A stretch of DNA of 64,000 nt from Alphaproteobacteria bacterium (GTDB lineage Bacteria > Pseudomonadota > Alphaproteobacteria > UBA8366 > Aestuariispiraceae), in NCBI GenBank assembly GCA_024743195.1, contig JANSXE010000008.1, forward strand, positions 1 through 64,000. Reading direction: 5' to 3'. Of the stretch, positions 48,293 through 62,679 are shown piece after piece (the first letter of the stretch is position 1; each line of letters starts with the position of its first letter). A program made the position numbers and the translations under genes. Under the pieces are notes generated by a model that ran no database searches, was not told the DNA's origin, and saw only the letters and a list, made by a program, of their open reading frames with translations.

Positions 48293-50023
48293 TCATGGTT
48301 TGTAGCCCAGACGCAGATTGCCCCATTGCCGCCCGCGCACCGTGATCGGGACGGTCATGTCCTTCATCAGGACGAAGGCGCCGCCGCCCATGTCGCGCAG
48401 ATAGCTCTGGATCAGGAAGGGCTGATCGTTCGCACCGGCGGCCTTGCCCGTCCGGTCGGTGAAGATGCGCCGATTGCGGCAGTTGGCGGCGTTCCAGACC
48501 GGATCGTCCGGCCGCTGCGGTTTGGAGTATTTCAGATTGTGGGTCGGCAGATAGCCGTTGCGATCGACCGCCGCGCAGAAGGCGATGCGCTCGTCCGCCT
48601 CCGAGACCGGCTCCTGGATGGGCGGCAGGATGCGGTCCAGGACCGCATTGTAGCGGGTGCTGTGCTGCTGCGGATCGCTGCCCTCGATCGGCCGGTAGTC
48701 GGTGTCGAACAGGGCGTCCAAAGACAGCTCGCCCGTCTCGACCGTGCGCTCGAAGACGGCCGAAACCTCCGCGGCGGCCCGGGTCAGCAGATCGATGAAC
48801 GGCTGGTCGAGCGCGATATGGGCGCGCACGAAGGCCTCCAGCGCCGCCTCCTGACCGGGATCGAGCCGCAACCGGTCGCCGGTCAGCCGACCGCGCAGCG
48901 CGCCCAGTCCGGGGAGGGACAGGGCCGTCTCGCCATCGGGCAGGGGGCCGTCGGCGGCTTCGCTCGCCTGCAGGCGGGCGCCGGCGGCGTCGAGATCGTC
49001 GACCGCGACCGGAATCCGTCGGCCGCCGAGCGTCAGCGTCCCCGTCAGCGTCACCGGCAGGCGCGCCGGCGCATAGTCGCCCGAGCGCGCCTTGGTCGAT
49101 TGGATCGCGGTTCCGAGCCGTCCCTCCAAGGCGCCGATCATCTTGTGAACCTGCACCGCCTGATCGCGTTGGGTGTCGGCCAGGCGGGCCGTCTCCTCCA
49201 CCTTGCCGGAAACGCCGTCGACCGCATCGCTGACCGCCTGCGCCCCGCTTGCGGTCTCCTGCGCGTTGCGGCCGATCTCGCGGATCGCCTCCTGCTGCTG
49301 GCCGACGGCGCCGGCGGCCTCGCCGGAGCAGGCTTCGACCTCGTGGATCGCGGCGCCGATCGATTCGATGGCCGCGACGGCGTCTTTCGTCACCTGCTGG
49401 ATCTCGGCGATCTGTTCGGCGATCCGTTGCGTCGCCTCGGCGGTCTGACCGGCGAGCGACTTCACCTCGCCCGCCACCACCGCGAAGCCCTTTCCGGCGT
49501 CGCCCGCGCGCGCCGCCTCGATCGTCGCATTGAGGGCCAGCAGGTTGGTCTGGCTCGCGATGTCCTCGATCAGTTTCACGATGGCGCCGATCTTGGCGGA
49601 CGCCTGGGAAAGCGCGCCGACGACCTCGCCCGCGCGGCGCGTTTCGGCGACCGCCGTTTCCGCCTGGCTGCTGGTCCGCCCGACCTGCTCCTCGATGACG
49701 GCGGCCGACGCGGCCAATTCTTCCGTGGCCGCCGCCACGGCCTCGACGTTTCGCCCGGCGGCTTCCGCCGTCTCCCGCAGATCGGTGCAGAGTTGCGAGA
49801 CGGCGGCGAGCGCGGCGGCGACGCCTTCCGCGGCGTTCTCCATCACGTCGCTTGCCTCGTTCGCGTCCGCGACGGTGCCTTCGATCTCGCCCTGGAAGGC
49901 GTCGGCGAGCGTCAGGAGTTCGCGCCGCTGCCACAGCAGGGCGGCGTCGGCGGCGCGCACCGCGTCGGCGCCGGCCGCCGAATCCGAGTCTTCAGGGGTC
50001 GGCTTGGCGTCGTCCCAAGGCAT
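48293..50023 (-). CDS. Soluble methyl-accepting chemotaxis protein with C-terminal sensor
   Basis: This 576-aa chemoreceptor-like protein lacks transmembrane segments. The MCP signalling region comes first (about 30-300), with the hairpin tip-type sequence IEDIASQTNLLALNATIEAARAGDAGKGFAVVAGEVKSLA. A PilZ-like segment follows (TGTLTLGGRRIPVAVDDLDAAGARLQA). The C-terminal part (about 420-576; ALFDTDYRPIEGSDPQQHST, FCAAVDRNGYLPTHNLKYS, GNLRLGYKP) looks like a small cache-type or haem-like sensor domain found at the end of soluble receptors. The start ATG 50023 follows AGGAGG; the ORF track begins at 50086. It probably reports an internal signal such as redox state. Confidence 0.85.
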   Translation of the reverse strand: MPWDDAKPTPEDSDSAAGADAVRAADAALLWQRRELLTLADAFQGEIEGTVADANEASDVMENAAEGVAAALAAVSQLCTDLRETAEAAGRNVEAVAAATEELAASAAVIEEQVGRTSSQAETAVAETRRAGEVVGALSQASAKIGAIVKLIEDIASQTNLLALNATIEAARAGDAGKGFAVVAGEVKSLAGQTAEATQRIAEQIAEIQQVTKDAVAAIESIGAAIHEVEACSGEAAGAVGQQQEAIREIGRNAQETASGAQAVSDAVDGVSGKVEETARLADTQRDQAVQVHKMIGALEGRLGTAIQSTKARSGDYAPARLPVTLTGTLTLGGRRIPVAVDDLDAAGARLQASEAADGPLPDGETALSLPGLGALRGRLTGDRLRLDPGQEAALEAFVRAHIALDQPFIDLLTRAAAEVSAVFERTVETGELSLDALFDTDYRPIEGSDPQQHSTRYNAVLDRILPPIQEPVSEADERIAFCAAVDRNGYLPTHNLKYSKPQRPDDPVWNAANCRNRRIFTDRTGKAAGANDQPFLIQSYLRDMGGGAFVLMKDMTVPITVRGRQWGNLRLGYKP

Positions 50024-50191: not shown

Positions 50192-50212
50192 TTGTTTGTG
50201 TACGAATGAATT
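50192..50212. promoter_or_regulatory. Candidate operator upstream of hyuAB, shared with Mo-hydroxylase operon
   Basis: TTGTTTGTGTACGAATGAATT lies 84 bp upstream of the hyuA start in an AT-rich island. The core TTTGTGTACGAATGA recurs with one change upstream of the molybdenum hydroxylase operon (TTTGTATACGAATGA, 62229-62243). TTTGTRTACGAA is nearly palindromic and has the GT/AC spacing used by FCD-type GntR repressors. Confidence 0.7.
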
Positions 50213-50295: not shown

Positions 50296-52371
50296 ATGGC
50301 GAGGGCTATGGGCGGCGGGATCGTCGGCTGCGACGTGGGCGGCACCTTCACCGACCTGATCTATATCGAGACCGATCCGACGGGCGGCGGCGCGGGCGCG
50401 GTCCGCATCGCCAAGGCCCCGACGACGCTCGACAATCAGGCCTTCGGCGTGCTGCACGCGCTGGATTCGGCCGGCGCCGACGCGGCGGCGATCGACGCGC
50501 TGGTGCACGGCACGACGACCACGACCAACGCGGTGCTGGAGCGCAAGCTCGCCAAGACCGGCCTGATCACCACCGCGGGCTTTCGCGACGTGTTGGAGCT
50601 GGGCCGGCGCACCCGCCCGCACAGCTATGGGCTGAAGGGGGCGTTCCGGCCGCTGATCCCGCGCGAACTGCGGCTTGAGGTTCCGGAGCGCCTGGATGCG
50701 GACGGCGAGGTGGTGACGCCGCTCGACGAAGCCGCGGTGCGCCGGGCGGTCGAGGCGCTGATGGCGGCGGGATGCGAAGCGCTGGTGATCCATTTCCTGC
50801 ACGCCTACAAGAATCCCGCGCACGAACGCCGCGCGGCCGAGATCGCCGCGGAGCTCTGGCCCAACCGCTACATCACCCAAGGCCATGCGCTCCTGAGCGA
50901 GTATCGCGAGTACGAGCGCGGCGTGACCGCCGCGGTCAACGCCTCCGTCCAGCCGATCCTGGAGCGCTATATCGCCCGCCTCGCGGACGAACTGGCGGGC
51001 CGCGGCTACGCCAAGGATCTGCTCGTCATGCAGGGCAATGGCGGCGTCGTCTCCGGCCGTATCGTCGCGGAGACGGCGGTCAACACCGTGATGTCCGGCC
51101 CGGCCTCGGGCGTGATGGCGGCGGCCTACACGGGCGCGGCGGCGGGGGTCGACACGCTCATCACCTTCGACATGGGCGGCACCAGCTGCGACGTGGGCCT
51201 GATCCGCGACGGCGCGCCCCAGGTCTCCAACGAGCTGGAGATCGAGTACGCCATGCCCGTCCACGTGCCCATGGTCGACGTCCACACGATCGGGGCGGGC
51301 GGCGGCTCGATCGCCGCGATCGACGAGGGCGGCCTGTTGCGCGTCGGGCCGGAAAGCGCGGGCGCGACCCCGGGGCCGATCTGCTACGGCCGCGGCGGGA
51401 CGGAGCCCACGATCACCGACGCGAACCTGGCGCTCGGGCGGCTCGACCCGGACGCGCTGCTGGCGGTCGACAACCCGGTCAGCCTGTGGGACGTGCGAGA
51501 GGCGATCGGCGCGCGGATCGGCCGGCCGCTCGGCCTCGACTGGGAGCAGGCCGCCGCCGCCATCCTGCGCATCGCCGACGACAAGATGGCCGGCGCGGTG
51601 CGCATGGTCTCGCTCAGCCGCGGGCACGATCCGCGCGACTTCGCGCTCTTCCCCTTCGGCGGGGCGGGCCCGCTGCACGCCGCCTCGATCGCGCGGGAAT
51701 TGGGCGTGCCGAGGCTGTTGATCCCGGCGCGGCCCGGCGTGACCAACGCGCTCGGCTGCGTCGTGGCCGACCTGCGGCACGACTACGTCAACACGCTGAA
51801 CGAGCCAATGGGGACGGTCGACATGGCCGAAGTCCGCGCGGTGCTGGAGGAGCAGATCGCGCAGGGTCGCGAGACGATCGCGCGCGAAGGCGCGGCGGTC
51901 GAGGCCGTGCGCGTGCTGCACAGCGCCGACATGCAGTTCGTCGGGCAGAGCCACCTGCTCTCGGTTCCCGTCTCCGGCCCGGACGTCAGCCGCGAGACGC
52001 TGCAGCAAGCGTTCGAGGCCGCTTATTGGGCGCGCTTCGAGGTCAGCCTGCCGGAGATCAAGGCCAACCTCGTGAACCTGCACACCGCCGTCATCGGCAA
52101 GCGCCCGCCGGTCGATCTGTCGAACCTGATCGACGAGCCGCGCGCCGACAGCCTGGACGGCGCGCGAACCGGAATGCGCCCGGTCTGGTTCGCGGGCGCC
52201 GGCTGGGTGGAGACCCCCCTCTACGCCCGCGGCAAGCTGGCGACCGGCTTCACCATCGCCGGGCCGGCGATCGTCGAACAGCTCGACACCACCATCGTGA
52301 TCGAGCCCGACATGACCGCGAGCGTGGACGCCATGGGCAATCTCGACGTGCGGATCGGAGGCGCAGCATGA
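50296..52371 (+). CDS. hyuA: Hydantoinase/oxoprolinase family protein, HyuA type
   Basis: This 691-aa subunit belongs to the ATP-dependent N-methylhydantoinase/5-oxoprolinase/acetone-carboxylase group. Motifs include GCDVGGTFTDLIYIE, HGTTTTTNAVLERK, VMQGNGGVVSGRIVAE, FDMGGTSCDVGLI, GAGGGSIAAID and PGPICYGRGG. It works with HyuB, whose gene overlaps by ATGA. The start is uncertain: ATG 50296 or ATG 50308 (GAGGG nearby). It would open a cyclic amide, such as a hydantoin or lactam, at the cost of ATP; the real substrate is not fixed by sequence. A motif shared with the molybdenum hydroxylase operon lies upstream. Confidence 0.9.
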   Translation: MARAMGGGIVGCDVGGTFTDLIYIETDPTGGGAGAVRIAKAPTTLDNQAFGVLHALDSAGADAAAIDALVHGTTTTTNAVLERKLAKTGLITTAGFRDVLELGRRTRPHSYGLKGAFRPLIPRELRLEVPERLDADGEVVTPLDEAAVRRAVEALMAAGCEALVIHFLHAYKNPAHERRAAEIAAELWPNRYITQGHALLSEYREYERGVTAAVNASVQPILERYIARLADELAGRGYAKDLLVMQGNGGVVSGRIVAETAVNTVMSGPASGVMAAAYTGAAAGVDTLITFDMGGTSCDVGLIRDGAPQVSNELEIEYAMPVHVPMVDVHTIGAGGGSIAAIDEGGLLRVGPESAGATPGPICYGRGGTEPTITDANLALGRLDPDALLAVDNPVSLWDVREAIGARIGRPLGLDWEQAAAAILRIADDKMAGAVRMVSLSRGHDPRDFALFPFGGAGPLHAASIARELGVPRLLIPARPGVTNALGCVVADLRHDYVNTLNEPMGTVDMAEVRAVLEEQIAQGRETIAREGAAVEAVRVLHSADMQFVGQSHLLSVPVSGPDVSRETLQQAFEAAYWARFEVSLPEIKANLVNLHTAVIGKRPPVDLSNLIDEPRADSLDGARTGMRPVWFAGAGWVETPLYARGKLATGFTIAGPAIVEQLDTTIVIEPDMTASVDAMGNLDVRIGGAA

Positions 52372-54098
52372 CGGCCGAGACGATCGATCCCGTCACCCTG
52401 ACGGTGATCCAGAACGGGCTCGCCCAGGTCTGCAACGAGATGGACCTGGCCTTCTGCCGGGCCGCCTTCTCGCCGGTGATTTCGGAGGCGATGGACCGCT
52501 CCGACGGGATCTACGCGGCCGGCGACGGCGCGCTGATCGCGCAAGGCGAGCTCGGCCTGCCGGTCTTCGTCGGCACCATGCAGTACGGCACCCAAGCGGT
52601 GATCGAGCGGGTCGCGAACCCCGAGCCCGACGACGTCATCCTGTGCAACGACCCCTATCTGGGCGGCACGCATCTGATGGACGTGCGCTTCTACCGGCCC
52701 TTCTTCTACAAGGGGCGGCTCTATTGCTGGCTGGCCAACACCGGGCACTGGCCGGATACGGGCGGCATGGTGCCGGGCGGCTTCTCCGCCCGCGCGACGG
52801 AGGTGGAGCAGGAAGGTCTGCGCCTGCCGCCGGTCAAGCTCTTCAAGCGGGGCGTCCTCGACGCCGAAATCCTGGCCATCATCCAGTCCAACATCCGCAT
52901 CGCCGACCAGCGGATCGGTGACATTCAGGCCCAGGCGGCGGCCCTGAAGATCGGCGACCGGCGGCTCACCGCGCTGCTCGACCGCTATGGCGAGGAGACG
53001 GTGACGGCCGCGATCGGACAGTTGCGCCGGCGCGCCGCGCAGCTCATGCGCGCCAAGATCGCCAAGATCCCCGACGGCGTCTACGAAGGCGAGGCCTTCG
53101 TCGACAGCGACGGCGTGGTGGACGAGCCGTTGCGCATCGCGATGAAGATCACGGTCGTGGGCGACGAGATGATTTTCGACATGTCGGGGAGTTCGCCCCC
53201 CTGCCGGGGGCCGATGAACAGCGTCATCGCCACCACCCGCTCGTCGGTCTATCTGGCGATGAAGCACATCTTCCCGGACGTGCCGCTGAACGCCGGGACC
53301 TACGAACCGCTGAAGATCCTCGATCCGAAGGGCACCTTCCTCTATGCGGAGTATCCGCGGCCCGTCTCCGGCTGCGCCGCCGAGGTCTCCCAGCGTATCG
53401 CCGAAGCCGTCTTCGCGGCGCTGACCGAGGCCATCCCGGACGAGCTGTTCGCCGCGCCCGCCGGCTCCAGCGGCAATTTCGCGCTCGGCGGCTCCGACCC
53501 GCAGACCGGGCGGTCCTACGTGATGTACGTGATCTCCGGCGGCGGCTATGGCGGCTATGCGGAAGGCGACGGGCTCTCCAACGGCTGTTCGACCATCGGC
53601 ATCTCCAAGTCGCAGCCGGTGGAGGTGCTGGAGCAGTACTATCCCGTCCTGTTCCACCGATACGCCCTGCATGACGGCTCCGCCGGCGCCGGCGCCAGCC
53701 GCGGGGGGCTCGGGCTCAGCTACGCCGTCTCGGTGCGGCGGGGGGAGGCGCGCGCCTCCATGGTGATGGATCATGGCCGCACCGGTCCCCAGGGCGCGCT
53801 GGGCGGCGCCGACGGCGGGCCGAACCGGGTGCGCTTCCAGTTCAAGGACGGCCGCAGCTACGAGCCCGAGCACAAGTCGAAGGACCAGGACGTCACCATC
53901 CGTCCGGGCGACGTCGTTCATGTCTCCACCCCCGGCGGCGGCGGTTTCGGCGATCCGATGCGCCGCGACCCGGCCAAGGTCGCCGCCGACGTCGCCAAGG
54001 GCTATTACGACGCCGAGGCGGCGCGCGCCCACTATGCCGTCGTCCTCGCCCCCGATGGGTCGGTGGATGCGGCCGAGACCGCGCGGCTGCGCGGCTAG
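52368..54098 (+). CDS. hyuB: Hydantoinase/oxoprolinase family protein, HyuB type
   Basis: This 576-aa partner of HyuA has family features PVTLTVIQNGLAQVCNEMDLAF, CNDPYLGGTHLMDVRF, ANTGHWPDTGGMVPGG, QSNIRIADQRIGDIQAQ, PMNSVIATTRSSVYLA and the end PGGGGFGDPMRRDPAKVAADV. ATG 52368 overlaps the hyuA stop, indicating coupling; the long upstream frame in the ORF track is a hyuA shadow. HyuAB together probably hydrolyse or carboxylate a cyclic amide or related substrate. Confidence 0.93.
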   Translation: MTAETIDPVTLTVIQNGLAQVCNEMDLAFCRAAFSPVISEAMDRSDGIYAAGDGALIAQGELGLPVFVGTMQYGTQAVIERVANPEPDDVILCNDPYLGGTHLMDVRFYRPFFYKGRLYCWLANTGHWPDTGGMVPGGFSARATEVEQEGLRLPPVKLFKRGVLDAEILAIIQSNIRIADQRIGDIQAQAAALKIGDRRLTALLDRYGEETVTAAIGQLRRRAAQLMRAKIAKIPDGVYEGEAFVDSDGVVDEPLRIAMKITVVGDEMIFDMSGSSPPCRGPMNSVIATTRSSVYLAMKHIFPDVPLNAGTYEPLKILDPKGTFLYAEYPRPVSGCAAEVSQRIAEAVFAALTEAIPDELFAAPAGSSGNFALGGSDPQTGRSYVMYVISGGGYGGYAEGDGLSNGCSTIGISKSQPVEVLEQYYPVLFHRYALHDGSAGAGASRGGLGLSYAVSVRRGEARASMVMDHGRTGPQGALGGADGGPNRVRFQFKDGRSYEPEHKSKDQDVTIRPGDVVHVSTPGGGGFGDPMRRDPAKVAADVAKGYYDAEAARAHYAVVLAPDGSVDAAETARLRG

Positions 54099-54208: not shown

Positions 54209-54925
54209 TTACGCCGCCTTCGCCGGGCGCGCTTCGCGCAGCGCCTCCAGCACCCTGGCGCTCAGACTGTCCAACGACATCGGATTCTGACCGGTCACCA
54301 GATTGCCGTCGCGCACCGCGTAGGAGGTGAAGGCGTCGCCGCCCTCGAATCGGGCGCCGAGTTCGCGCAGCCTGCTCTCCAACAGGAACGGGACCACGCC
54401 GTCGAGCTCGACGCCGCGCTCCTCTTCGTCGGTGAAGCTGTTGATCGCCTTGCCGGCGACGATGGGCGCGCCGTTCGCGTCGCGGGCGCCGACCAGACCC
54501 GCGGGCCCGTGACAGACGGCGGCGACCGGCTTGCCCGCCTGATAGAAGGCGCTCACCAACTGGGCGAGCGTTTCGTTGTCCGCCATGTCCCACATGGTCC
54601 CGTGGCCGCCCGGCAGGTAGATCGCGTCATAGCTGTCCGGATTGACGTCGCCGAGCGCCACCGTCCCCCGGATCGCCGCCATGGCCGCGCCGTCCCTGAG
54701 GAAGCGTTCGGCGCTTTCCGCATTCTCGCCGTCGGGTTTGCGGCTGTTCGGGTCGATCGGCGCCTCGCCGCCGCGAATGGAGGCGATGTCGACCGTGTGG
54801 CCGGCGTCCGTGAACGCGTAGTAGGGATGCGTCAGCTCCTCCAGGTGAAAGCCGGTTTTTGCGCCGGTGTCGCCGAGTTGGTCGTGCGAGGTGGTGACGA
54901 TCAGGATGCGCTTGCTGTCGGCCAT
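54209..54925 (-). CDS. DJ-1/PfpI family protein (Hsp31-like)
   Basis: This 238-aa protein has the Hsp31-like DJ-1 fold: ILIVTTSHDQLGDTGAKTGFHLEELTHPYYAF, YLPGGHGTMWDMADN and the nucleophile elbow AVCHGPAGL with a Cys. This group includes glyoxalase-III-type enzymes and chaperone-like deglycases. It is monocistronic on the minus strand, after hyuB. A role in aldehyde defence is plausible but not shown. Confidence 0.9.
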   Translation of the reverse strand: MADSKRILIVTTSHDQLGDTGAKTGFHLEELTHPYYAFTDAGHTVDIASIRGGEAPIDPNSRKPDGENAESAERFLRDGAAMAAIRGTVALGDVNPDSYDAIYLPGGHGTMWDMADNETLAQLVSAFYQAGKPVAAVCHGPAGLVGARDANGAPIVAGKAINSFTDEEERGVELDGVVPFLLESRLRELGARFEGGDAFTSYAVRDGNLVTGQNPMSLDSLSARVLEALREARPAKAA

Positions 54926-55425: not shown

Positions 55426-56016
55426 TCAGCGCAGCCCGTCGCGTTTCGAGATTCCAGCGACCGTCAGGCCGCCGACCCGCTCGTGGATCCGTCCGCCGTC
55501 GGCCATGGCGATCGCGTAGACGATCTCGCGCGGGCGCGGGGCGTCCGCGACGCGCACCTCGATGGCGGAGAAGTGGCTGCGCACATAGGCCGCGTCGATA
55601 TGGCCCAGCGGCACGTCGAGGCCCGCCCCCGCCGCGCCGACCTTCTTCGACGACGGCACGATGGCGAGCGCCTCCCCCAGCAGGCGCCGCATGGCGTAGC
55701 CGCCGGGGACGTGCCACAGCGCGCCGTGCTCCAACTCCCCCTCCACGCCGACGATGGCGCCCTTGCCATAGGCTTCGATCGCGGACGCGTCGCCGCCCAT
55801 GGCGGCGAGCAGACGCTCGGCCATCTCGTCGCCGAGCGGTTTCAGCGTCTCCATGAAGCTCTCGATCTCGGGCGAATAGCTCCCGGCGAAGGGATTGGCG
55901 ATCACGGCCGCCGCCCAGCCGACGCGCACGGGGCGGGCCGGCGGCGGACCGAATTCGTGGCGGATTTCCTCGACATGGGTGGCGATCTTGCGGATCTCGA
56001 CGGCGGCTTCGCTCAT
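55426..56016 (-). CDS. DUF1185 'amino acid synthesis' family protein
   Basis: This 196-aa protein has the features of DUF1185 proteins: EIRKIATHVEEIRHEFG, RVGWAAAVIANPFAG, GKGAIVGVEGELEHGALWHVPGGYAMRRLLG, and the end GISKRDGLR, the usual family terminus. The family name has no established biochemistry. ATG 56016 follows AGGAG; the ORF-track start at 56133 is inside the UPF0280 gene. Its start codon overlaps the end of the UPF0280 gene, so it is the last gene of the operon with the Hnr-like protein and molybdenum hydroxylase. Confidence 0.85.
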   Translation of the reverse strand: MSEAAVEIRKIATHVEEIRHEFGPPPARPVRVGWAAAVIANPFAGSYSPEIESFMETLKPLGDEMAERLLAAMGGDASAIEAYGKGAIVGVEGELEHGALWHVPGGYAMRRLLGEALAIVPSSKKVGAAGAGLDVPLGHIDAAYVRSHFSAIEVRVADAPRPREIVYAIAMADGGRIHERVGGLTVAGISKRDGLR

Positions 56017-56888
56017 GCGCTGAGGCTCCTGGGGGATGAGGTCGTGTTGGGGGCGGCGAGGGGGCCGACGGCGCGGCGCGCGCCCTTGAGGCTGAGGACC
56101 GCGGCTTCGATCAAACCCTGGGCGCAGCACCATGCCGCCAGCCCGGCGCCGGCGTCGAGCGCGCGGTCGATCGTCGCCGCCGGCAGCGGCCCGACTTGGG
56201 TCGCAACCAACCGGTCGCCCAGGTCGCTGTCCGGATCGAGGCTGTGCGCCGGCGCGCGCCGGATGGCGGGGTCGTCGCAGTCGGTCGCGTTGGCGATCAG
56301 CGTCGCCGCCGCGTCGGCGGCGGCGGCCGTTGCGGCCAGCACGGTGACGGCGTCCGCGATTCCCAGCGAGAAGGAGCGGCCGCCGCGCCCGCTGGTGGCG
56401 AGGCCGCGCGCCGGCTGCGCGGCGTCGAGGCGCACCGTTCCAGCCGCTTCCAGCGTCTCGTCATTCGCGACAAGGCCGGCGGTCAGGCAGGCGTCGCCGG
56501 TCAGGTGGAAGGCGATGTCGCCGCCGTTGTTCACATAGGCCTTGGCGAGGCGCCGGCGGGTCGTCAGCGCGGCCAGCATCTGGTCCGCAACCGCGCCGGC
56601 CACCGCCGCCATCGGCGTGATGAAGGCCGTATCGGCGAAGGGCAGGCAGGCCCACCGCATGCGCTGGGCGACCGGGCCCCGCGGCGTCTCGTCCGACACG
56701 GGCCGGCGCAGCAGCGGCAGCTCGGCGGCGAGACGGGGCAGGATGTCGGGAAAGGCGGCCTCCGCCTGGGCGTAGGCGGCCTCGACCTCCGCCCGGTCGC
56801 CCTCCGCTTCGATCAGCAGGTCGATGGGGCCGTGCTGGAAGTGCCGCCGGCCGTCCGGCAGCCGGGCGAGGAGCGGGGCCGCGCTCAT
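56013..56888 (-). CDS. UPF0280 family protein (ApbE-like fold)
   Basis: This 291-aa protein shows UPF0280 hallmarks: RMRWACLPFADTAFITPMAAVAGAVADQM, AYVNNGGDIAFHL, RGLATSGRGGRSFSLGIADAVTVLA. The N-terminal region is acidic-rich. Members resemble ApbE FMN-transfer proteins, and an N-terminal proximity to Fe-S or flavin enzymes is common, but function is unproven. ATG 56888 overlaps the Hnr-like stop (ATGA) and its own stop overlaps the DUF1185 start. An FMN-attachment or maturation role for a neighbouring enzyme is a hypothesis. Confidence 0.85.
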   Translation of the reverse strand: MSAAPLLARLPDGRRHFQHGPIDLLIEAEGDRAEVEAAYAQAEAAFPDILPRLAAELPLLRRPVSDETPRGPVAQRMRWACLPFADTAFITPMAAVAGAVADQMLAALTTRRRLAKAYVNNGGDIAFHLTGDACLTAGLVANDETLEAAGTVRLDAAQPARGLATSGRGGRSFSLGIADAVTVLAATAAAADAAATLIANATDCDDPAIRRAPAHSLDPDSDLGDRLVATQVGPLPAATIDRALDAGAGLAAWCCAQGLIEAAVLSLKGARRAVGPLAAPNTTSSPRSLSA

Positions 56889-58441
56889 CCGACCGGCTCC
56901 GTCTGCGGATCGAGCGGCCACGGGTTGTCGGGCTGCGCGCCGATCAGGCGGCGGCCGTCCTCCGTTCGGATGTCGGAAATGGGCGTGATCGACCCCGCAT
57001 GACCGCCGAGCGCGAGATAGACCGCCTGCGGCATGGTGAACTCGATCGGCGCGACCAGCGCCGGCGTCGGAACCGAGCCGAAGCTGTTCTCCGGCGTGCG
57101 GGTCACGTCGGCCATGATCGTGATGCCGCCGCCGGGCCAGACATAGGCCGGCGCGCCGCCGACGGTCACCCGGGTCAGCAGTTGCTGCACCGAGCGGGTG
57201 AGCAGCACCGGGTTCTCCGTCACGCCGGCGCGCAGGCTGCCGCCCGCGCCGCCCAGGAACAGGACGGAGCAGAGCGCCGGCTCGCAATTCTCCGCGATCC
57301 GGTCGACGACCTTGACGAGCGCGGGCGGCATGTCCGTCGGGATCGGCTTCAGATCCCCGTCCAACACGCAGTAGAGCGAATCCTCCCCGGTCGTGGAGAC
57401 CATGAAGAGCCGCAGGCCCGGCCACGCCTTCTTGGGATCGATCTTCTCGATGATGGAGAGCGGGTCGGTCACGTCGGTGCCGCCCCAGCCGCTGCCCGGC
57501 TGCGCCACCTGGAAATAGCGCCCGGGGGTGGAGCGGCGCCCGCGCACCCGGATCCCGGCCGGCGTCATGCCCAGATAGGCGCCGGCCTGATGCTCCGTCA
57601 GCACGCCGGTGATGTGATCGTCGACCACGATCACCTCGTCCGCATGACCATGCCATTGCTGGGCGAAGATGCCGATGGCGGCGGAGCCGCAGCCGACGCG
57701 CATGCGCGCCTCGCGCTCGCCGTCGATCACGGGGGCTGCGCCGGCCTGGACGGTCAGGCGCGCGCCGCCGTCGATCTGCATCTCCACGGGCTGCTTGTTG
57801 CAGAGGTCGAGCATCGCCCGGCAGGTGACGACGCCCTCCTTCTTGGAGCCGCCGGTCAGATGGCGCACCCCGCCGAGCGAGAGCATCTGCGAGCCGTATT
57901 CCGCCGTCGTCACATGGCCGATCGGCTCGCCCTCCACGGTGACGGTCGCCTGCTCGGGGCCGATGTGCCGGTCGGTGTCGATCTTCACCTTGAGCGAGCA
58001 ATAGCTGAAGATCCCCTCGGTCACGACGGTGACCGTGTCGACGCCCTTCCATGTGCTGGAGACGATGAAGGGGGCCGGCTTATAGTCGGGATAGGTGGTC
58101 GCGGCCCCGATTCCGGTGACGAAGACCGGATCCTCGGGCGCCAGCGCGCCGTCCCACGCCTCCCCCTGTTTCAGAAAGCGAACGACCTGGCCGTCCGCCC
58201 GAGCCTCCACCTTCTCCAGGAGGACGAGCGGGTCGGTGCGGGCGAGGCGGCCGTCGATATTGGCGTAGCGGTCGCAGGCGCCGGTGCGGCCCGTGCGGAT
58301 GCGGCACAGCACCGGGCAGGCGTCGCAGCGGACGATGTCGCCGTCGCCCGCCGCGTCTCCTCCGGCGTCGGCTCTCGCGTCAGACGCCGGCGCCGGCTGG
58401 GCGGCCGGCTGGGCGGCCGGGTCCTGGCGGGTTTCGGTCAT
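56885..58441 (-). CDS. 6-hydroxynicotinate-reductase-like iron-sulfur protein
   Basis: This 518-aa protein has a Cys cluster near the N-terminus, CDACPVLCRIRTGRTGACDRY, suited to a [4Fe-4S] centre, followed by a body with GVVTCRAMLDLCNKQP, VGCGSAAIGIFAQQWHG, VVDDHITGVLTEHQAG and VWPGGGITIMADVTRTPENSFG. This pattern matches proteins annotated as 6-hydroxynicotinate reductase, known from anaerobic nicotinate fermentation in Eubacterium barkeri, where the enzyme reduces the 6-hydroxypyridine ring. A homologue in an aerobic-type alphaproteobacterium suggests ring reduction of some N-heterocycle. Its N-terminus has a 12-bp duplication (AAQPAAQP). It overlaps both neighbours by ATGA. Confidence 0.78.
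   Translation of the reverse strand: MTETRQDPAAQPAAQPAPASDARADAGGDAAGDGDIVRCDACPVLCRIRTGRTGACDRYANIDGRLARTDPLVLLEKVEARADGQVVRFLKQGEAWDGALAPEDPVFVTGIGAATTYPDYKPAPFIVSSTWKGVDTVTVVTEGIFSYCSLKVKIDTDRHIGPEQATVTVEGEPIGHVTTAEYGSQMLSLGGVRHLTGGSKKEGVVTCRAMLDLCNKQPVEMQIDGGARLTVQAGAAPVIDGEREARMRVGCGSAAIGIFAQQWHGHADEVIVVDDHITGVLTEHQAGAYLGMTPAGIRVRGRRSTPGRYFQVAQPGSGWGGTDVTDPLSIIEKIDPKKAWPGLRLFMVSTTGEDSLYCVLDGDLKPIPTDMPPALVKVVDRIAENCEPALCSVLFLGGAGGSLRAGVTENPVLLTRSVQQLLTRVTVGGAPAYVWPGGGITIMADVTRTPENSFGSVPTPALVAPIEFTMPQAVYLALGGHAGSITPISDIRTEDGRRLIGAQPDNPWPLDPQTEPVG
58395..58418. repeat. 12-bp tandem duplication in Hnr-like gene
   Basis: Two copies of GGCTGGGCGGCC encode repeated AAQP in the disordered N-terminus of the Hnr-like protein. 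The unit keeps frame. Confidence 0.88.
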
Positions 58442-61239
58442 CGCCCGCCCGCCCGCGCCGCCTCGATCGCCGCCAGCACCCGATGCGGCAGGGCCGGAAC
58501 CTCCCGGATCACCGCGCCGGTCGCATGCCGGATCGCGCCAAGGATGGCGGGGGCGGTCGGCACCAGCGCCGGCTCGCCGATCCCTTTCGCGCCGTAGGGG
58601 CCCTCAGGCTCCGGATCCTCGATCAGGATGCACTCGATCGTCGGCATGTCGCCGAAGGTGGGGATCAGATAGTCGTGCAGGTTCTCGGTCCGGCCGGGGA
58701 TGTACTCCTCCATCAGCGCGAGACCGAGGCCCTGCGCCACGCCGCCGTGGATCTGTCCCTCCACCAGGGTCGGGTTGACCGCCCGCCCGACATCGTGCGC
58801 CGCCAGCAGACGGATGGGCGTCACCGTCCCCAGCTCGACGTCCACCTCGACCTCCGCAATCTGTGCGGCGAAGCCGTAGGTGGCGTAGGGGACGCCTTGT
58901 CCGTCGGCGTCCAGGCCCGTGGTCGGCGGGTCGAACCGGCCGAACCCTTCCAGCACCGCGCCGTCCGCCCCCTCGGGCAGGTCGGCGAGCGCGATGCGCT
59001 TCTCCACACCGTCCTCGATCGCGAGGATCGCGCCGTCCTCGAAGCGGATCGCGGCGTCCGGCCCGGCGTTGGCGCGCCGGCGGATTTCGGCCAACAGCGC
59101 CTCGGCCGCTTCCTTGACCGCCCGGCCGGAGACGAAGGTCTGGCGCGAGGCGGAGGTCTTGCCCGCATCGGGAGTCGCGTCCGTGTCGCCGGTCACCTGC
59201 CGGATCTCGGAGACCGGGACGCCCAGCGTCTCGGCGCAGATCTGCGGCATGATGGTGTAGGTTCCCTGGCCGATGTCGACCGCGCCGTTATAGAGCGTGA
59301 TGCGCCCGCGCCGGTCGACCGCGACCCGCATGTGCGACGGGTTCGACATCGAGGTGTTGCCGCAGCCGTACCACATGCAGCCGACCCCGACGCCCCGGCG
59401 CGTCGGCGAGCCCTCGGCCTCGGCCGCCCGGTTCGCCGCCTCGGCCTCGGCGCGCCAGTCGGTCCAGGCGGGCCGCACCGCCTCCAGGCAGGCCGCCATG
59501 CCGACCGAATGCTCGATCACCTGACCGGTCGCCGTGCGATCGCCCGCGCGCAGCGCATTGCGAAGCCTCAGCTCCAGCGGGTCCGCCTCAAGCCGCTCCG
59601 CCAGATCGTCCATAAGGGATTCCACGGCGATCGCGCCCTGCGGCACGCCGAAGCCGCGGAAGGCCCCCGACGGCGGGGCGTTGGTGTGGATCGCAGCGCT
59701 GGTCGCCAGCACCTGCGGGACCCGATAGGGGCCGGTGGCGTGCACCGGCACGCGCCCGGCGACTGTCGGCCCCCAGGACGCGTAGGCCCCGGTGTCGAAG
59801 TCCGCATGCAGGCGCAACGCCGTCAGGCGGCCCGCCTCGTCCGCGCCCAGCGCCGCGTCGATCCGGGCGGGATGGCGCTTGGTGCTGCTGCGCATGCTGT
59901 CGGGCCGGTCATAGACGCAGCGTACGGGCCGATCGGTCAGCCAGGCCGCAACCGCGAGGATCGGCTGCAGCGAGACGTCCAGCTTGCCGCCGAAGCCGCC
60001 GCCGCAGGCGGTCGGCACGATGCGCACGCGCTCCTGCTCGAAGCCGAGCACGTTCGCCACCTCCTCCAAATCCATGTAGGGCGCTTGCGTACAGGCGTAC
60101 ACATGGACCCGATCGCCGACGCGTACGGCGTAGCCGGCCTCCGGTTCGATATAGGCGTGTTCGACGAAGGCGGTTTGGAAGCGCCCCTCCGCCCGATGCG
60201 CGCTGTCCGCCAGCGCTGTCTCCGCCTCGCCTGCGCGCACCCGACCGCGGATCAGCACGTTATGCTCCTCCAGCCGCGGATGAAGCGGCGGGGAGGCGGG
60301 GTCCAGCGCCGCGTGGACGTCCAGGACGGCCGGCTCCTCTGTCCATTCGATCGGCAGCTCCGCATCGGTCAGGGCGTCGATCGTCGCGGCGTCGCCGATC
60401 AAGGCGCAGACCGCATCGCCGCGATAGAGCGTCCGCCCGTCCGCCAGCACCGGCTGGTCCTTGATGGTCGGATAGATTCCGAAACCGTTCTGGCCGGGTA
60501 TGTCGGCCGCGGTCAGGATGCGGTGCAGGCCGGGCCAGCGCGCGTACACCTCGTCGAGCGCGCCGATCGTGAAGGTCGCGTGCGCGTACGGGCTGCGCAC
60601 GACGCGCAGATGCAGGCAGTCTGCCGGCCAAACGTCGGCGCCGTAGGGTTCGCTCCCGTCCAGCTTCGCCGCGCCGTCAAGCCGGGCGAGCCGCGCGCCC
60701 ACGGCCGCGGTCCCGTCGGCGTCGGCCGGCGGGGCCGGGCCGTTTCCGGCCGCGTCCAGCACCGCCTCGACGATCTTCTGATAGCCGGTGCAGCGGCACA
60801 GCACGCCGCCGAGGGCGTCCATCGCCTCGTCGGCCGTCGGCCGGTCGCAACGCGCCAGCAGGTCCGTCGCCGCCATCAGCATGCCGGGGGTGCAGATTCC
60901 GCACTGGGCGGCCCCATGCTTCAGGAACGCCTCCTGCAGGCGGTCGAGCGCGCCGTCCTGCGCCAGGCCTTCTACGGTGCGGATCTCGGCCCCGTCAGCC
61001 TGGGCGGCCGGCACGAGGCAGGCGCACGCCTGACGGCCGTCCAGCAAGATGGTGCAGGCGCCGCAATCGCCGGCGTCGCAGCCGACCTTGGTCCCGGGCA
61101 GGCCCAGATCCTCGCGCAGGACGCGGCTTAGCCGCTTGCCCGGCGGCACGGAGACGCGCCGCGCGGCGCCGTTGACGGTGAAGCGCAAGTCTTCGAGCCC
61201 GTTGGCGGTCTCGCGGTCGGCGTCGAGCGCATCGGTCAT
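58438..61239 (-). CDS. Molybdenum hydroxylase, fused 2Fe-2S and Moco subunits
   Basis: This 933-aa xanthine-dehydrogenase-family protein joins a 2Fe-2S domain to a molybdopterin domain. Fe-S ligands are CDAGDCGACTILLDGRQAC and, for the second cluster, CGICTPGMLMAA...CRCTGYQ. The Moco part starts about residue 185 and has GGGFGGK, AFRGFGVPQG, GQGTYTIMPQ and the catalytic-Glu region GAKGIGEPALVPTAPAI. A GMC-like fold is absent. It hydroxylates a carbon next to a ring nitrogen in heterocycles such as nicotinate or purines. ATG 61239 follows GGGAGA. It overlaps the Hnr-like gene (ATGA) and follows the FAD-subunit gene by 32 bp. Confidence 0.93.
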   Translation of the reverse strand: MTDALDADRETANGLEDLRFTVNGAARRVSVPPGKRLSRVLREDLGLPGTKVGCDAGDCGACTILLDGRQACACLVPAAQADGAEIRTVEGLAQDGALDRLQEAFLKHGAAQCGICTPGMLMAATDLLARCDRPTADEAMDALGGVLCRCTGYQKIVEAVLDAAGNGPAPPADADGTAAVGARLARLDGAAKLDGSEPYGADVWPADCLHLRVVRSPYAHATFTIGALDEVYARWPGLHRILTAADIPGQNGFGIYPTIKDQPVLADGRTLYRGDAVCALIGDAATIDALTDAELPIEWTEEPAVLDVHAALDPASPPLHPRLEEHNVLIRGRVRAGEAETALADSAHRAEGRFQTAFVEHAYIEPEAGYAVRVGDRVHVYACTQAPYMDLEEVANVLGFEQERVRIVPTACGGGFGGKLDVSLQPILAVAAWLTDRPVRCVYDRPDSMRSSTKRHPARIDAALGADEAGRLTALRLHADFDTGAYASWGPTVAGRVPVHATGPYRVPQVLATSAAIHTNAPPSGAFRGFGVPQGAIAVESLMDDLAERLEADPLELRLRNALRAGDRTATGQVIEHSVGMAACLEAVRPAWTDWRAEAEAANRAAEAEGSPTRRGVGVGCMWYGCGNTSMSNPSHMRVAVDRRGRITLYNGAVDIGQGTYTIMPQICAETLGVPVSEIRQVTGDTDATPDAGKTSASRQTFVSGRAVKEAAEALLAEIRRRANAGPDAAIRFEDGAILAIEDGVEKRIALADLPEGADGAVLEGFGRFDPPTTGLDADGQGVPYATYGFAAQIAEVEVDVELGTVTPIRLLAAHDVGRAVNPTLVEGQIHGGVAQGLGLALMEEYIPGRTENLHDYLIPTFGDMPTIECILIEDPEPEGPYGAKGIGEPALVPTAPAILGAIRHATGAVIREVPALPHRVLAAIEAARAGGR

Positions 61240-61271
61240 GGCGGGCGGGCTCTCCCTTGAACGGCGGCCGA

Positions 61272-62177
61272 TCAGGCGGCGCGGCCGGATGCTGTAGGGC
61301 CGGATGCGGTGGGGCCGGATGCGGCGCGAGGGGCGCCGCCGGCCAGCGTCTCCAGGGCGCGGGCTGTCAGAACGCGCGCGGCGTGGACCCGGTAGGCCGC
61401 GCTGGCGCGCACATCGCCGATCGGGCTGAGCGCCGCGAGATGCGCCGGCTCGACCAGCGCGCCGAGGCCCGGCGCGCACGGGCGGCCTATCAGCGCCGCT
61501 TCCAACGCGGGCAGCCGCTGCGCCGTGGCGGAGCAGGCGCCGACCGCGATGCGCGCGGCGGCCACCGATCCGTCCGCAGCGCCCTCGAGCGTCGCCGCGA
61601 CCATCGCGATGGAGATGACGAGATAGCGCCGCGCGCCGAGTTTCACGAAGCGGCTGCGCGCCGGATTCGCCGGCTTGGGCAGGCGGATCGCCGTCAGCAA
61701 CTCGTCCGGGCGGCGCGCCGTGGCGCGATAGCCGGTCAGGAAGTCCGCCAGCGCCAAGCGGCGGGTTCCGGCCCGGCTCGCCAACTCGACCTCCGCATCC
61801 GCGGCCAGCAGGCAGGGCGTTCCGTCCGCCGCCGGCGAGGCGTTGCAAAGGTTCCCGGCAAGCGTCCCGCGGTTCTGGATCTGGACGCCTCCGACCTCCC
61901 GCGCCGCCTGTTTCAGCGCATCGAACCAGGGCGGCAGATCGGCCTCGATCACGTCGGTCCAGGTGGTCCGCGCGCCGAGGACATACGCCTCCGGCTCCTC
62001 ACGGACGCCCCGCAAGGCCGTCAGCGCGGAGATGTCGAGCACGCCCTCAGGCGGCCGCGGCCCGACCCGCGCCGGGAAATGATCCGTCCCGCCGGCCAGG
62101 ACGGTCAGCGGTCGTTCCGCCAACAGCGCCAACGCCTCGTCCAGCCTGTGCGGCCGGTGGTGAACCGTTTCGGTCAT
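61272..62177 (-). CDS. Molybdenum hydroxylase FAD-binding (CoxM-like) subunit
   Basis: This 301-aa subunit carries the CoxM/XdhB FAD motifs LTVLAGGTDHFPARVG and QNRGTLAGNLCNASPAADGTPCLLA, then the CO_deh_flav_C-like region (DVRASAAYRVHAARVLTARAL). It passes electrons from the 2Fe-2S clusters of the partner to NAD or another acceptor. The start ATG 62177 (MTETVHHRPH) is chosen because the upstream ORF extension contains the operator-like motif and has no family similarity. A 15-bp repeat at the C-terminus gives ASGPT units. It is the first gene of the operon. Confidence 0.92.
   Translation of the reverse strand: MTETVHHRPHRLDEALALLAERPLTVLAGGTDHFPARVGPRPPEGVLDISALTALRGVREEPEAYVLGARTTWTDVIEADLPPWFDALKQAAREVGGVQIQNRGTLAGNLCNASPAADGTPCLLAADAEVELASRAGTRRLALADFLTGYRATARRPDELLTAIRLPKPANPARSRFVKLGARRYLVISIAMVAATLEGAADGSVAAARIAVGACSATAQRLPALEAALIGRPCAPGLGALVEPAHLAALSPIGDVRASAAYRVHAARVLTARALETLAGGAPRAASGPTASGPTASGRAA
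61283..61322. repeat. 15-bp imperfect tandem repeat at FAD subunit C-terminus
   Basis: GGCCGGATGC recurs three times with period 15 at the end of the FAD subunit gene, encoding ASGPT, ASGPT and ASGRA just before the stop. The sequence is a tail with no family counterpart. Confidence 0.88.
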
Positions 62178-62679
62178 CGCGCCGCTTACATCCCTGCCAT
62201 ATCCGGCGCGGCTCGCGCCGAGAATTTGTTTGTATACGAATGAGTTTGCGGGAATTCCGATCCGTCGGCAAGAGGCGGCGGTGCCGCGCTTGTCGATCGA
62301 CGCGCCGCCCGCGCGGCGGCGGCGCCGCGCATAGGTCGTAACCATTCCTTCACTTTTTCGCGCCATGGTCGCTTGCAGGATGAAGGCGCCGCTCAGACGG
62401 GAATAGCGAGTCCTTCGCAATGCGCGGGTCGATTTGTGCGCTGCACTTTGGTAGACTTTGCCGCGCTACAGTAGTTTCGTCGAATAACGGGACGTTTCCT
62501 AGAGGAGCCGTATCGACGTCACTGCGAACTCTCGCGCGTCTCTGGCGATCGTCGATTGCGGGGGATTTTACGGAGCGTTTCGGGTAGCCGCGTCGGCGCG
62601 GCCTCGCATGGGGAATTGCTTCCCTGGCGCTTGACCACAGGGGACTGGGCGGTCGGAGTAACGGCCTGTGCGGAAGGCG
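62178..62679. promoter_or_regulatory. Divergent intergenic region with operator motif
   Basis: This 502-bp region separates the molybdenum hydroxylase operon (minus) from the PAS-GGDEF-EAL gene (plus). At 62229-62243 it contains TTTGTATACGAATGA in an AT-rich island, 52-66 bp upstream of the FAD-subunit start; this matches the motif upstream of hyuA. The stretch at 62400-62520 is also relatively AT-rich and may carry the plus-strand promoter. The ORF at 62556-62945 is a shadow of the downstream gene's start. I see no RNA gene here. Confidence 0.6.

Follow-up and report, generated by a model that had tools for sequence, protein, structure and literature searches.

A putative nicotinate-type hydroxylation and reduction cluster of Alphaproteobacteria in which ATP-dependent HyuAB probably takes the place of enamidase

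In the window, the whole 64,000-nucleotide stretch of alphaproteobacterial DNA analysed here, positions 55426-62177 of the minus strand are occupied by exactly five genes, as an earlier note on this DNA had described; domain searches bear out its gene names, and its statement that the genes overlap or nearly so is true: three of the four junctions are ATGA overlaps of 4 bases, and a gap of 32 bases separates the FAD and fusion genes. The FAD-binding subunit of a xanthine-dehydrogenase-family (XDH) molybdenum hydroxylase (61275..62177, minus strand), with Pfam domains FAD_binding_5 (PF00941, E 1e-40) and CO_deh_flav_C (PF03450, E 4e-15), is followed by a fused 2Fe-2S and molybdopterin (Moco) hydroxylase subunit (58441..61239, minus strand) with Fer2, Fer2_2, Ald_Xan_dh_C and MoCoBD_1/2 domains, for which no NCBIfam equivalog was matched at its cut-off. 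The third gene (56888..58441, minus strand) encodes a 6-hydroxynicotinate-reductase-like Fe-S protein (Hnr), whose relatives are 62-82% identical and in several cases annotated as 6-hydroxynicotinate reductase; the fourth (56016..56888, minus strand), a UPF0280 protein and proposed Hnr flavin transferase (NCBIfam NF003322, 360 bits against a cut-off of 290; no Pfam match); and the fifth (55429..56016, minus strand), a DUF1185/AA_synth protein (PF06684, E 4.5e-68). Hnr, UPF0280 and AA_synth each occur in one copy in the genome. On the plus strand, hyuA (50308..52368; Hydantoinase_A) and hyuB (52371..54095, start possibly 52368; Hydantoinase_B, E 3e-161) encode the two subunits of an ATP-dependent lactamase, the proposed ring opener, each with the Pfam domains expected of hydantoinase A and B subunits. 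A DJ-1/PfpI-family gene (54212-54925) lies between hyuAB and the operon, and is 79% identical to a cluster neighbour in Marivibrio halodurans (L002 13405-14136) but was not seen in other loci.

Matches to Hnr were found in 69 of 385 sampled alphaproteobacterial genomes, reduced to 68 when one weak fragment was dropped. The gene order FAD, Mo/FeS, Hnr, UPF0280 and one or two AA_synth genes recurs in some 80-86 loci, most relatives having the FAD gene immediately before that of the fusion subunit, and the retention of this order in dozens of loci means that the arrangement is not due to chance. HyuB adjoins HyuA in relatives, and the pair often stands directly after AA_synth. Annotated plasmid records, used as the reference for naming genes in relatives' clusters and left out of the alignments for structure models, additionally carry ferredoxin-NADP reductase, MarR regulators and Liv-type transporters; in two of them the FAD/MoFeS pair is replaced by a NicAB-type nicotinate dehydrogenase, with cytochrome c domains seen in one. 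Some marine clusters hold a Rieske oxygenase with a VanA-type C domain (L083 16055-17122, L086 15523-16593, and L080), which could supply the route with N-methylpyridine acids; the idea of a homarine operon was dropped, as the literature gave no gene link.

An operator, CATTCGTAYACAAACAA, is present at 50192-50208 and 62226-62242, against an expected mean of 0.01 in shuffles of the window. The copy before the five-gene operon, CATTCGTATACAAACAA (62226..62242, minus strand), is kept before relatives' clusters, and the other, CATTCGTACACAAACAA (50192..50208, minus strand), separates hyuA from a chemoreceptor-like gene; both were assessed by genome motif search and shuffles. The same site precedes hyuA and the FAD gene, confirming that HyuAB shares an operator with the five-gene operon. 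The chemoreceptor-like gene (48296-50023, minus strand), with an MCP signalling-domain sequence recognised by eye, diverges from hyuA across the operator and might be co-regulated with it. With up to three mismatches allowed, the operator occurs at only three places in the whole 4.17 Mb genome, the third (a blind find) being on contig C19 between a gene for a 487-aa protein and a LivKHMGF transporter. Products of this 487-aa gene, livK and livH are 47%, 68% and 75% identical to those of Neorhizobium Hnr-cluster genes, and orthologues of the Liv-type transporter sit inside Hnr clusters elsewhere. The 487-aa protein (C19, L093 8426-9886; L082 4737-6197) has no Pfam match and accompanies the Liv transporter and operator.

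The core operator motif was counted 15 times in relatives' loci totalling 1.5 Mb; 13 of these copies lie at promoters, namely those of FAD, Hnr, HyuA, ferredoxin reductase or enamidase/MarR genes. A weight matrix was built from relatives' sites and matches of at least 14 bits were counted, of which 9 turn up in 2 Mb of random sequence. Of 20 further clusters 19 have such a site upstream, though some of the 20 apparently derive from the same assemblies as the training loci, making their independence partial. Of 12 HyuA genes not next to Hnr, seven are also preceded by such a site; the sites of these unlinked genes lay outside the training set, and one of the seven genes is separated from the Hnr of its chromosome by 1.17 Mb. 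With this common operator and the contiguous operons of relatives, the link previously suggested between the Mo-hydroxylase, the Hnr-like protein and HyuAB is supported.

Regulation of these sites is probably exerted by a MarR protein. Of the ligands through which BpsR, a MarR repressor released by 6-hydroxynicotinate, binds its effector, Tyr15 and Arg26 are present in all aligned cluster-linked MarR proteins, position 23 is His or aromatic (mostly His23), and His32 is found in most. The more distant structure 2nnn also retains the Tyr and Arg, and the BpsR-like signature is therefore suggestive rather than proof. A candidate regulator in the genome itself (C11:141.8 kb), 80 kb away, keeps three of the four ligands, with His32 replaced by Ala, and a weak two-sided operator-like site of 12 bits lies just upstream (C11:141591-141608). 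The Liv-type ABC transporter, on another contig, would share this regulation, the probable repressor being a BpsR-like MarR protein that senses 6-hydroxynicotinate; the MarR ligand residues, together with enamidase in sister clusters, favour nicotinate as the substrate.

The nearest solved structure to HyuA is N-methylhydantoinase 7hk5 (E 1e-138), with 5-oxoprolinase 6yra also matched, and HyuA and HyuB score 525 and 354 bits against the NCBIfam caprolactamase models CapA and CapB, below their cut-off of 1000 bits. A search of the genome returned a single HyuA at E<=1e-100; a search for enamidase homologues returned none at E<=1e-30. Some other loci carry, where HyuAB would otherwise stand, an amidohydrolase clearly related to the Eubacterium barkeri enamidase 2vun (E 1e-106). 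Orthologues were defined as at least 60% identical for HyuA (next best matches 55, 53 and 49%) and at least 64% identical to the L083 enzyme for enamidase (next best 45%), both thresholds having been chosen after the gaps were visible. Among the 68 Hnr genomes, 37 have HyuA only, 29 enamidase only, none both, and two neither (these being 70% and 86% complete), an exclusion with Fisher p 3e-17 if relatedness is ignored. Seven switches of opener are placed on the Hnr tree, at least five of them forced by starred branches, and the clusters of loci L010 and L011 correspond except that one opener is exchanged for the other. All four pairings of hydroxylase (NicAB or FAD/MoFeS) with opener (HyuAB or enamidase) occur among the loci. 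Because no genome has both openers and at least five switches are forced, HyuAB is most likely a replacement for enamidase in ring opening; the suggestion that HyuAB could open the reduced ring thereby gains support from mutual exclusion, operator and synteny.

Eight Cys residues are invariant in Hnr (39, 42, 46, 56, 148, 207, 251 and 386). No Pfam or NCBIfam model matches it above cut-off, GCV_T_C appearing only at E 0.0019; a sequence search of structures returned no solved relatives, and the structure model is weak (pLDDT 76), its fold search giving noise only. A hint of a GcvT C-terminal barrel (Foldseek probability 0.44) is in line with the sub-threshold Pfam match. For a Bradyrhizobiaceae homologue an identity of 42% has been published (PMC3511419), and orthology to the E. 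barkeri enzyme is proposed here from annotation together with this value. A conserved ApbE target motif was not recognised by inspection among the invariant Hnr columns; the consensus GSATI reads GSAAI in the protein itself. The Hnr of E. barkeri reportedly carries a covalent flavin, as Alhapel et al. are said to have described in 2006, and with this flavin in mind UPF0280 as the flavin transferase of Hnr would be the simplest reading.

Each of the 34 Hnr-positive genomes tested has UPF0280, adjacent to Hnr except in one fragmented assembly; of 46 Hnr-negative genomes one gave a match, at an unconvincing E 9e-4. In the wider set of loci, L014, L066 and L072 have no UPF0280 near Hnr. Its structure model (pLDDT 92) has DVU1097 (2o34) as its first match, and all further matches to rank 41 are flavin transferases of the ApbE, FmnB and Ftp kinds, the fold probability against ApbE being about 1 at a moderate TM of 0.35-0.49. 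Profile alignment by hhalign with a small, motif-picked ApbE set gave a probability of 93 (E 3.5e-7), with a shared GGD, ATSG and ADAxxT core; in the ADAxxT metal-site motif, Asp192 is invariant and Thr196 present in at least 90%. The HIxDP segment, which holds the catalytic His of ApbE, is absent from UPF0280 in the profile alignment. A true ApbE (PF02424) was not found in the genome, nor in three further Hnr-positive genomes of a smaller sample (G007, G064 and G071; 68-93% complete). Strict linkage to Hnr, the distant ApbE fold and the lack of a true ApbE in the genome together make UPF0280 the likely flavin installer of Hnr, so that the addition of FMN to the Hnr-like protein, which the earlier note raised as a possibility, is plausible.

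Enamine and imine deaminases of the RidA type have a chorismate-mutase-like fold. Solved relatives of DUF1185 are 3byq and 2qtp, and known structures of the family have been assigned this fold (PMC2954203). The family had been considered to be without known role; leads nevertheless exist in TgnF and HcdD, which are treated in a published account (PMC7913881), where TgnF of trigonelline breakdown is cited as stimulating its partner enzyme. A second AA_synth type (AAsyn2) goes with enamidase, being found in 26 of 28 enamidase loci against four of 29 HyuAB loci. Handling of an enamine or imine by DUF1185, as a partner in ring opening, may be suggested as a guess, a role that is doubtful.

Taken together, the cluster very probably degrades nicotinate or a close relative by hydroxylation followed by ring reduction, as judged from its sequence. 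It is proposed that the fused Mo-hydroxylase 6-hydroxylates nicotinate or a related pyridine carboxylate, which would produce 6-hydroxynicotinate or a close analogue; the Hnr-like flavo-Fe-S enzyme, its covalent flavin installed by the ApbE-fold UPF0280, would reduce this to 1,4,5,6-tetrahydro-6-oxonicotinate (THON); HyuAB would open the six-membered lactam of THON with ATP, replacing the ATP-independent enamidase; and DUF1185 may assist with the enamine or aldehyde product after ring opening. This model as a whole, an aerobic nicotinate-type hydroxylation and reduction route in a HyuAB variant, is considered probable. In its favour, oxoprolinases OplAB hydrolyse delta-valerolactam with ATP (PMC11033972).

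Enamidase opens THON without ATP, and a point against the model is that it does not explain why HyuAB should need ATP. It is conceivable, if unlikely, that the same chemistry is applied to another pyridine (picolinate, an N-methylated pyridinium acid or a hydroxypyridine), with a non-enamide lactam that needs ATP-driven HyuAB: relatives of HyuAB act on ordinary stable lactams (PMC11033972), the nearest curated models being those of caprolactamase CapAB; the FAD/MoFeS hydroxylase is not of the NicAB type and matches no curated equivalog; and a Rieske oxygenase belongs to some marine clusters. In L082, however, HyuAB accompanies a NicAB-type dehydrogenase, and many loci combine enamidase with FAD/MoFeS, while the operator and MarR ligand residues are common to HyuAB and enamidase clusters, and repeated change of substrate would be the less economical account of the several switches of opener seen on the Hnr tree. 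Very improbable is a scavenging lactamase or hydantoinase that is connected with the operon only loosely, through a regulator of broad scope: hyuAB does stand apart from the operon, on the opposite strand and with the DJ-1 gene between, and HyuA paralogues are common in related genomes, but the genome has a single HyuA at the stringent threshold, its orthologues lie head-to-tail with UPF0280/DUF1185 in many relatives and exclude enamidase, and the operator is not widespread in the genome.

For UPF0280, the missing HIxDP segment and the moderate likeness to the ApbE fold would also suit another Hnr-specific factor built on that fold, such as a flavin carrier, FAD hydrolase or assembly helper, a possibility to be taken seriously if short of probable; the retained GGD and ADAxxT motifs, perfect co-occurrence with Hnr in 34 genomes and a genome devoid of PF02424 matches speak for a flavin transferase instead. 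If UPF0280 is such a transferase, its chemistry must differ from that of ApbE.

The route is not confined to the fermenting clostridia from which the earlier note took it to be known. Aerobic Azorhizobium and Bradyrhizobiaceae carry it, and a conserved cluster has been described (PMC3511419, PMC9304392; Kitts 1989 and 1992, cited in PMC3511419). As that aerobic cluster has already been described, the present one is a variant of the nicotinate, 6-hydroxynicotinate, THON pathway, and the idea of an undescribed system does not hold. New here are HyuAB in the place of enamidase and the strict link of UPF0280 to Hnr, of which no description was found in the open-licence papers searched, none of them linking hydroxynicotinate with hydantoinase or Hnr with UPF0280; prior description elsewhere is possible. 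The joint proposal that Alphaproteobacteria have repeatedly exchanged enamidase for an ATP-dependent lactamase with DUF1185 as enamine hydrolase, and that UPF0280 forms a separate, Hnr-dedicated class of covalent flavin transferase without the ApbE His segment, is put forward tentatively, as less probable than not. Specific, testable roles are offered for two families of unknown function, UPF0280 and DUF1185; a second solution to nicotinate ring opening is predicted in 37 of the 68 sampled carriers; and a compact regulon of operator, transporter and candidate repressor is supplied. With Hnr in about one-sixth of sampled alphaproteobacterial genomes, the route may be of importance for how pyridine acids are turned over in soils and in the sea.

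Among known systems, the E. barkeri fermentation cluster (ndh, hnr, enamidase 2vun) shares with the present one a Mo-hydroxylase and an Hnr-type reductase, and its enamidase has homologues in relatives' clusters, whereas the present hosts are aerobic proteobacteria with a fused 2Fe-2S/Moco subunit, HyuAB rather than enamidase, and UPF0280 and DUF1185 in the operon, downstream fermentation genes not being recognised here. The Azorhizobium/Bradyrhizobiaceae cluster has been described with genes for the first three steps, HyuAB going unmentioned in the available part of that account (PMC3511419). BpsR is approached by the cluster MarR proteins in Tyr15, Arg26 and mostly His23 and His32, although the regulator of this genome has Ala at His32; the likeness was judged on protein residues. 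ApbE flavin transferases resemble UPF0280 in fold and in the GGD, ATSG and ADAxxT core, but UPF0280 is without HIxDP and is missed by a PF02424 genome search. The family of OplAB, CapAB, 7hk5 and 6yra is akin to HyuAB in domains and nearest solved structures, and OplAB opens six-membered lactams with ATP, while the HyuA considered here belongs to a clade of its own, at least 60% identical within and at most 55% identical to other HyuA proteins.
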